A stretch of 64,000 nucleotides of DNA, taken from positions 736,887 through 800,886 of the forward strand of contig NZ_CP031310.1 of NCBI RefSeq assembly GCF_004799665.1, written 5' to 3'. Shown here one piece after another: positions 8,039-9,596 of this stretch (position 1 is the first letter of the stretch; each line of letters starts with the position of its first letter). This DNA comes from Halapricum salinum (GTDB lineage Archaea > Halobacteriota > Halobacteria > Halobacteriales > Haloarculaceae). Under the pieces are notes generated by a model. That model had not been told where the DNA came from. It ran no database searches and worked only from the letters and a program-made list of their open reading frames with translations. A program made the translations under genes and the position numbers.

Positions 8039-8644
8039 TCAGAGGACGGCCGGTAGCTCGGTCAGGTCCGCGATCCGAGTATCGGGCTCGCGGTAGGGCG
8101 TCTCCTCCTCGGTTTCGACCCAGATCGACCGCATTCCGAACGTCTCGCCCATCAGCAGATCCTCGTTGTACTCGTCGCTGACGAACGCGACTGGTCGGTC
8201 ATCCTCGGGAAGGCACTCCACGTAGCCCTTCGGATGTGGCTTTGGCCGCTGGATGTCCGAGGAGACGACCAGCTCGTCGAAGCAGTCGAGGATTTCGTGT
8301 TCTTCGAGCACCGTCTCGATCCACGGCCGCGCCATGTTCCCGAACAGGACGAGTCGGTGCTCGCTGGCGAGGTCCCGGATGACGTCGGCGTGTTCGTCCG
8401 GAACGTCGGGATCGAGCCACGTCCGGTCGAGATACTCCCGACAGGCGTCGCGGGAGGCTCCAGTGAGCGTTTTCAGGAGGTCGAGATAGCCGTCGGTAGT
8501 CTGGACGAACCCATCACGGAACGCGAAGTAGGCGATCCAGCCAGGGTACGGGTCGCTGTTGGGATCGACGCCGAGAATGTCCGCATGGTCGCGTTCGTCG
8601 CCGTGCTCGACGATGACGCCGCCGTAATCGAGAACGAGCTGCAT
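8039..8644 (-). CDS. HAD superfamily hydrolase
   Basis: The 201-residue product has HAD motif I as LVLDYGGVI (nucleophile Asp, but Gly where phosphatases usually have the second Asp). Motif II is VLFGNM, motif III is around SDIQRPKPHPKGY with the conserved Lys, and motif IV is VAFVSDEYNEDLLMGE. A helical cap lies between residues 15 and 85. DYGGV-type motif I is common in HAD-IA proteins acting on small organic phosphates or halides; the substrate is unknown. Its stop is six bases from the convergent TrpD-like gene. Confidence 0.85.
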   Translation of the reverse strand: MQLVLDYGGVIVEHGDERDHADILGVDPNSDPYPGWIAYFAFRDGFVQTTDGYLDLLKTLTGASRDACREYLDRTWLDPDVPDEHADVIRDLASEHRLVLFGNMARPWIETVLEEHEILDCFDELVVSSDIQRPKPHPKGYVECLPEDDRPVAFVSDEYNEDLLMGETFGMRSIWVETEEETPYREPDTRIADLTELPAVL

Positions 8645-8749
8645 TGGAATTGTGAGAGACTGTCGTCGTCGTGATCAAGTCTTCGATACGGCGACTCTGG
8701 AACCTCCTCGACTCGCGGCTAGGACTCGGAGACAGCAACGTCACCAAGC

Positions 8750-8894
8750 AGGGAAAGCCCTCAACTCGCTGGCGGCCACTGAGCGGCATATCCTCACACC
8801 GTTCGGATAGGGGCCGCTCAGTGACTCTCTTCGCTTCGCTCAGCGCCACGCGAGTCTCGCCCTTTCATCCGCCAGGCTTCTACCGCAACAGCAC
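8750..8894 (-). repeat. Structured repeat element, copy A (left arm)
   Basis: Read on the minus strand this segment begins GTGCTG and contains GATGAAAGGGCGA. It then forms a strong hairpin (8777-8787 with 8813-8823, 11 bp, with inner TATCC/GGATA pairing) and ends GAGGGCTTTCCC. The same order of signals occurs at 9091-9276 on the plus strand. The two copies therefore form long degenerate inverted arms about 145-185 bases each. No credible protein is encoded. Confidence 0.65.
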
Positions 8895-9090
8895 CACCCC
8901 GCAAAGCAGGCCTGCCCTTCCCCGAGTCGGCCGATAAACGGCCTCCCGGCCACCGCGGGGCAGTCAGGAAGCGTGTCGCGCGCAGAACTGCGCGCGACCG
9001 GGGAGGTGCGGGAGGCGTGACCGAAGGGAACGCCTCCGGATGTCCGAGCGGGGAGGAACGACCCGCGAGGAGTGGGGACACGATAATGCG
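8895..9090. other. Hairpin-dense non-coding core between the inverted repeat copies
   Basis: This stretch contains a 10-base palindrome at 8906-8915 and the hairpin 8929-8933/8939-8943. A perfect 11-bp palindromic stem has a two-base loop (8975-8985 with 8988-8998), and an 8-bp stem lies at 9011-9018/9030-9037. Open frames cross it but have no haloarchaeal acidic bias. I see no transposase, tRNA or rRNA. Confidence 0.5.
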
Positions 9091-9276
9091 GTGCTGCCCT
9101 GGAGGACTGAAAGGGCGAACCACGTCTTCGAGCGGGCCAGCCGCCCGCTCGAATGGTCTGAGAGAGCTTTGCTCTCTCACTAGTCGCGCTGAAAGAGAGT
9201 CGCTGGGTGGGCACTATCCGAGTGGAGCGAGGGTATCCCACCCAGCGACCGCGAGCGTGGTGAGGGTTTTCGAGGA
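9091..9276 (+). repeat. Structured repeat element, copy B (right arm)
   Basis: It begins GTGCTG and contains ACTGAAAGGGCGA. Three strong hairpins follow: 9127-9137/9143-9153 (11 bp), 9159-9167/9171-9179 (9 bp, TTT loop) and 9199-9211/9237-9249 (13 bp, with the inner TATCC/GGTA pairing that copy A also has). It ends GAGGGTTTTCGAGG. Relative to copy A it is in opposite orientation and carries two extra hairpins. Confidence 0.65.
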
Positions 9277-9302
9277 GTTGTCGCTACTAGTAGTGTCAGT
9301 TC

Positions 9303-9596
9303 CTAGCGGGCGTTTCGAAGATGCGTCAGCGCCTCCTCGTGAGTCATCCCGCGCACGCCACACGCACACGAGAGCAGTTCAGGATCGTTCAGTTCGTCCA
9401 CTTGCTCGCGTTCGTCACGCACCAGCACCTCATTTTCTTCATCATATTCGAACGTCACGCGATAACTCACCTGTGCGACACCCTCGATCTCGTGCGCTTC
9501 CTCGGGATCGGGGTTCTCGATGGCCTCGGCGTGCTCGGCCTGCATGCTTTCTTTCCACTCCTCCAGGGTCGCCTCGGGATCACGACCGTCAGCCAT
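9303..9596 (-). CDS. Small acidic haloarchaeal protein of unknown function
   Basis: The 97-residue, strongly acidic product ([19 protein letters not shown]) has a predicted helix at the N-terminus and beta strands in the middle ([26 protein letters not shown]). It ends with a Cys-containing helix ([24 protein letters not shown]). I do not recognise a named family. Composition and the [13 protein letters not shown] ending look like a conserved haloarchaeal protein. The ATG at 9596 was chosen because the upstream extension loses acidity and runs antisense through the cyclophilin gene. It is divergent from that gene, with 73 bases between the starts. Confidence 0.75.

Follow-up and report, generated by a model that had tools for sequence, protein, structure and literature searches.

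The stretch of Halapricum salinum DNA analysed here (64,000 nucleotides, hereafter the window) contains a strongly structured block that the first-pass annotation took for a palindromic miniature element or a structured RNA pair of 530 bases, and the question is which kind of element this locus represents. The two facing arms that had been described were found in place, one on the minus and one on the plus strand, and their motifs and hairpins could be mapped. The 11-bp palindrome with a two-base loop was likewise recovered as GTCGCGCGCAG-AA-CTGCGCGCGAC. The block is a real repeat, but its size had been underestimated, since alignments to the genomic copies span the larger interval given in the first line below. 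By eye, no coding ORF over the block was recognised in the ORF list. On one side it is flanked by a minus-strand ORF at 8039-8644, which we take from its sequence to be HAD-like and whose start faces the block, and on the other side by a second minus-strand ORF, which ends at 9303 and receives its TAG stop (9303-9305) from the terminal CTAG of the right tail. No tRNA was found near the block nor, in a scan, at 16 other loci. The features of the block are the following:

8706..9313, no strand: whole repeated element; outer borders approximate, alignments of copies starting at 8692-8706 and stopping at about 9313
8717..8762, minus strand: left tail, GAGGGCTTTC, then about 30 bp, then TCCTAGCC (GGCTAGGAC on the plus strand, 8717-8725)
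8753..8875, minus strand: left arm, with motif CTGGCGGATGAAAGGGCGA at 8875-8857 and end motif GAGGGCTTTC at 8762-8753
8774-8787 paired with 8813-8825, minus strand: left-arm long stem, tip TATCC/GGATA
8876..9098, no strand: core between the arms, with purine-rich blocks and further hairpins
within 8926-8911, minus strand: core purine-rich block CGGGGAAGGGCAGG
8997-9008, plus strand: core purine-rich block ACCGGGGAGGTG
8975..8998, no strand: within the core, perfect 11-bp palindrome whose loop is AA
9099..9271, plus strand: right arm, with motif CTGGAGGACTGAAAGGGCGA at 9099-9118 and end motif GAGGGTTTTC at 9262-9271
9199-9211 paired with 9237-9249, plus strand: right-arm long stem
9124..9185, plus strand: two additional nested hairpins of the right arm, CTTCGAGCGGGC... 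and TGAGAGAGCTTTGCTCTCTCA
9262..9313, plus strand: right tail, ending in TTCCTAGCG (9300-9308)

The right arm is longer than typical because of its two extra nested hairpins. A repeat finder independently paired 8753-8831 with 9193-9271 (79 nt, 76% complementary), and the whole block folded far below its dinucleotide shuffles on both strands (z -10.2 on the plus and z -9.4 on the minus strand). Folded alone, the right arm reached z -4.7 against shuffles. For the left arm the value was z -2.3, and 3 of 200 shuffles did as well.

When the host's own genome was searched at the DNA level, many partial matches to the right arm were obtained, and the whole block gave long matches, with identities of 69-84% for the longer ones. 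The exact pattern CTGGNGGAN{1,2}GAAAGGGCGA is present 37 times in this 3.45-Mb genome (18 forward and 19 reverse), while the reversed-pattern control gave 0 matches. By our own grouping, the 37 motifs fall into 25 places, 12 of which hold two exact motifs; in every one of these 12 the arms face outward. The common order of the copies is tail units, left arm, core, right arm, tail units, where a tail unit (GAGGG.TTT ... TCCTAGC) is found as 1-3 tandem units 51-57 bp apart; repetition of the unit, 1-3 times at both ends, is seen in L011, L018, L020, L024, L025, L027 and other copies of this genome. In the outer tail unit, the 3' strand of the outer stem is followed by about 30 bp up to TCCTAGC, and since this 3' strand is present in the tandem units, each of these is a possible pairing partner for the 5' strand. 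A rough ORF heuristic revealed no bias in gene orientation around the copies, and spanning ORFs were seen at three spurious-looking loci (L018, L038, L039). With these copy numbers, a length of about 600 bp and no transposase gene of its own, the element is multicopy, short and non-autonomous in the manner of a MITE.

The arm is a multicopy feature across Halobacteria. Its exact motif was detected in 72 of the 146 genomes of the family, representing 16 of 22 genera, with a maximum of 137 per genome, and the control pattern gave one match among the matches listed. In a sample of 392 genomes from the phylum, 20 carried the motif, 19 of them belonging to the window's order. GTDB contigs yielded at least 120 matching stretches and, among the 80 loci listed, all but two were titled haloarchaeal or Halobacteria; those two (L122 and L131) were rejected as arms, the 3' motif and the rest of the arm being missing.

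A viral link was also considered and discarded, as 13 of 14 motif matches in IMG/VR are without the 3' motif and look like chance; the remaining contig (L287) contains a real, complete arm, and no matching phage record was found. In genome G071, the arm motifs at loci L339 and L340 face inward at a spacing of about 256-260 bp, and their tails make up a shared inverted repeat, whereas the pairs of the window face outward. A sister arm variant with GGGACTGAAAGGGGC replacing GGACTGAAAGGGCGA was seen in L322 (100-560) and around position 4000 of L293 and L295. Our literature search of open-access papers returned no description of the arm module.

How such a block could have spread was seen best in relatives. 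In G078 and G079, from a genus of the same family, the paired arms make up the body of IS6-type MITEs, which are bounded by terminal inverted repeats and have 8-bp target duplications. Outward-facing arm pairs end there in TATCTGAACAC..CC repeats, and IS6-type ends were present on 22 of the 28 arms. At 10 of 14 loci both ends were recognisable and share terminal repeats, the other four loci being left out because an end was unrecognisable on one or both sides. Of the 8 flanking bases, 7-8 were duplicated in nine of these ten copies, two of which (L327 and L333) are one orthologous insertion, against 2.2% of 90 in a cross-pair control. The first-pass annotation had held that multiple copies with terminal duplication would speak for a mobile element; many haloarchaeal copies exist, and the duplications are those of these relatives.

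Halonotius has an autonomous IS6 element of 697 bp that shares its ends with single-arm elements. The ends are the same as those of the G078/G079 pairs and bound 697-bp elements at four places; two of these, when translated, encode IS6 transposases of 213-220 aa (NF033587, E about 1e-54 to 1e-56), and a third (L314) has no ORF of 120 aa. An exact 8-bp duplication surrounds the arm element at L321 (a 9-bp duplication considered for Halonotius was replaced by 8 bp on cleaner copies), and at L322 two outward-facing arm variants lie between the same IS6-type ends. At one locus the element is absent and the flanks are conserved in 3 of 3 other species, which gives a clear empty site; at another, it is common to two species. 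An arm with near-identical ends was also found on a Halorhabdus tiamatea plasmid. According to a passage in PMC7986276, IS6 family members are characterised by 8-bp target repeats and GG tips, with archaeal members of about 700-750 bp, and the same passage counts two IS6 MITEs in ISfinder, of 227 and 336 bp. The G078/G079 elements and their Halonotius relatives resemble IS6-family MITEs in their GG-tipped ends with TGTT, 8-bp duplications and lack of a gene, and, in Halonotius, in having an autonomous partner. They differ in having as their body, beyond fused IS ends, a folded module that is conserved and present once or twice, and the window copy differs further in being without IS6-type ends.

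In the subgroup of the window copy, none of the 35 arms of the own genome, the 19 Halosimplex arms and the 14 HArc-gm2 arms carried IS6-type ends, and target duplication in 14 own copies was equal to the control. The window copy thus has neither IS6-matching terminal repeats nor an 8-bp target duplication, and is therefore not established as an IS6 MITE. The IS6 transposases of its genome are two fragments, both with stop codons, so that the window copy is probably no longer mobile. In relatives of the own genus, the element was absent beside the conserved flanking genes of locus L030 in 5 of 5 cases, and at L026 in four relatives with long left-flank matches and in G001 with a short match; gene order was different, and no precise empty site was found in the own genus. 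We regard the window copy as an old member of its kind, whose mover has either been lost or escaped recognition.

Taken as a whole, the block is in our judgement probably an old copy of a mobile element that is non-autonomous, carries no gene and has two outward-facing folded arms. It would have spread in the same general way as its relatives, with its ends acted upon in trans by a transposase, and those ends would be of another type or of an eroded type. The arm would be carried along as cargo and have a role of its own in the form of a folded single strand, DNA being likelier than RNA, and would be related to a conserved haloarchaeal plasmid site that usually lies beside a gene for an RPA-like ssDNA-binding protein.

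The base pairs of the arm make it evident that this module folds in a strand-specific manner and is under selection. Its layout is CTGGNGGA..GAAAGGGCGA ... GAGGGCTTTC, and two inner types, A and B, were distinguished. The outer stem of 113 distinct arms comprises 1076 Watson-Crick cells, 34 G.T and 7 A.C. RNA folding was better on the motif strand than on its complement in 109 of the 113 arms. Covariation in the stems, named by the first-pass annotation as the mark of an RNA, was indeed found: double compensatory changes that keep the pairing were present at 22 of 33 base pairs in type A (46 arms) and at 20 of 31 in type B (28 arms). Covariation scores of 0.358 and 0.409 were reached by 0 of 500 shuffles and fell below 0.07 once the partners were slid by one to three columns. 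As these rows had been picked by exact motifs at both ends, the six invariant outer pairs carry no evidential weight. In our own tally, G.U against A.C amounted to 42:6 in the type A arms and 25:4 in the type B arms. The base pairs thus covary on one strand, as in a structured RNA.

A module related to the arm is also present on many large haloarchaeal plasmids as a strongly conserved single copy. The Halonotius arm as query retrieved 105 plasmid records, all haloarchaeal among the matches listed, with a highly conserved 114-bp version at a fixed place of the plasmid. In 10 of 12 plasmid regions (the exceptions being L303 and L312), a gene of about 290-300 aa lies 430-700 bp to the left of the module, annotated as DNA-binding protein in eight cases, as replication factor A in one and as hypothetical in one. 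In other plasmid regions the gene is on the left in L291, L292, L294, L296, L300 and L301, farther away in L297 and not on the left in L298 and L299, while L290, L293 and L295 are different contexts. The five neighbour proteins tested gave weak Pfam matches to OB-fold/RPA models, and the four compared with NCBIfam matched PRK07217 at 1e-16 to 1e-19, below the curated cut-off. Over 14 plasmids, a set without L291, L300 and others in which the neighbour was interrupted or different, mean identity was 0.875 for the module versus 0.688 for the neighbouring gene, and the module was the higher in 90 of 91 pairs.

The stretch between the RPA-like gene and the module also has conserved blocks in these 14 plasmids. 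In L296 (6530-7000), and similarly in L292, L294, L301, L302, L304-L311 and L313, the RPA-like gene and the arm module are separated by about 600 nt of non-coding DNA that is conserved and rich in hairpins. This stretch has no match in Rfam and may be a plasmid origin, a transfer site or a large RNA. PLSDB typing assigned many of the module plasmids to MPF_T and all of them to 'non-mobilizable'; transfer sites are not known to have been described for this group of plasmids.

The strand-specific covariation, the conserved unpaired stretches of type B arms and the conserved plasmid copy beside the non-coding stretch of about 600 nt would all fit a divergent pair of structured non-coding RNAs, whose arms would be transcribed outward and kept for an RNA function, with mobility being secondary. 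We give this explanation a real chance, though well short of an even one. The covarying stems are like those of Rfam families, but Rfam gave chance-level weak matches and no family at threshold, both at gathering and at permissive thresholds; by eye, the GC-rich core shows no TATA-like promoter; and the inner stem has been lost in one orthologous Halonotius copy, at the locus common to two species. The loops also speak against it. On the motif strand, 79 of 127 triloops are C(GNA)G (A 43, G 20, T 9, C 7) versus 2 of 80 on the complement, and with DNA energies the counts were 39 of 81 versus 2 of 77. GNA-loop mini-hairpins are described in a passage of PMC4686876 as extraordinarily stable DNA. 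Because C(GNA)G is a stable hairpin of the DNA type, these loops favour the arm acting as ssDNA, while leaving room for RNA.

Movement as ssDNA by a Y1 (IS200/IS605) transposase, in the manner of REP/BIME or PATE elements, is unlikely. It would agree with the inverted paired hairpins, the strand-specific folding and the lack of target duplication in the own genome. The PATEs of Haloquadratum, as presented in part of PMC3119063, are likewise gene-less palindromic repeats of haloarchaea in many copies; however, they relate to IS605-type ends, whereas the relatives of our element have DDE-type IS6 ends and target duplications. Bacterial REP/BIME and REPINs share the two inverted hairpin units and the many intergenic copies, but the units here measure at least about 100 nt, contain nested stems and are haloarchaeal. 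RepRanger reports REPs in archaea, and a word search of its main text (PMC12306157) found no haloarchaeal name. An IS200/REP transposase was rejected as mover, since Y1 transposases (PF01797) numbered 0 in the own genome, though present in 95 of the 146 family genomes, and none was found in G071, with its 19 motifs.

Template switching in palindromes can mimic compensatory changes, and the small nested hairpins do differ freely among copies, but that neutral palindromes were kept in this way, with no selected structure, is very improbable and already disfavoured by the strand bias, which argues against template switching as the sole cause (G.T over A.C, the folding asymmetry of the 113 arms and the loop bias), and by the strong conservation on plasmids.

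The original proposal of a palindromic miniature element or a structured RNA pair is hence supported, within the limits that target duplications in the own subgroup equal the control and that RNA and ssDNA are not separated. Beyond the mobile element with folded arms, we offer as a tentative idea, which we would sooner doubt than assert, that arms make up a new class of naturally occurring ssDNA sites, variable in sequence and conserved in structure (GNA-capped, sheared-GA hairpins). The arm may first have been functional on haloarchaeal plasmids, adjacent to the RPA-like ssDNA-binding gene, where it could have served for instance as an origin of transfer or as a site of single-strand initiation; IS6 and other MITE vehicles may then have captured it and multiplied it on chromosomes. 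The element accounts for a feature that recurs, unannotated, in the intergenic DNA of haloarchaea, connects IS6 elements with a folded module that is conserved, and directs attention to an uncharacterised conserved site on haloarchaeal plasmids.
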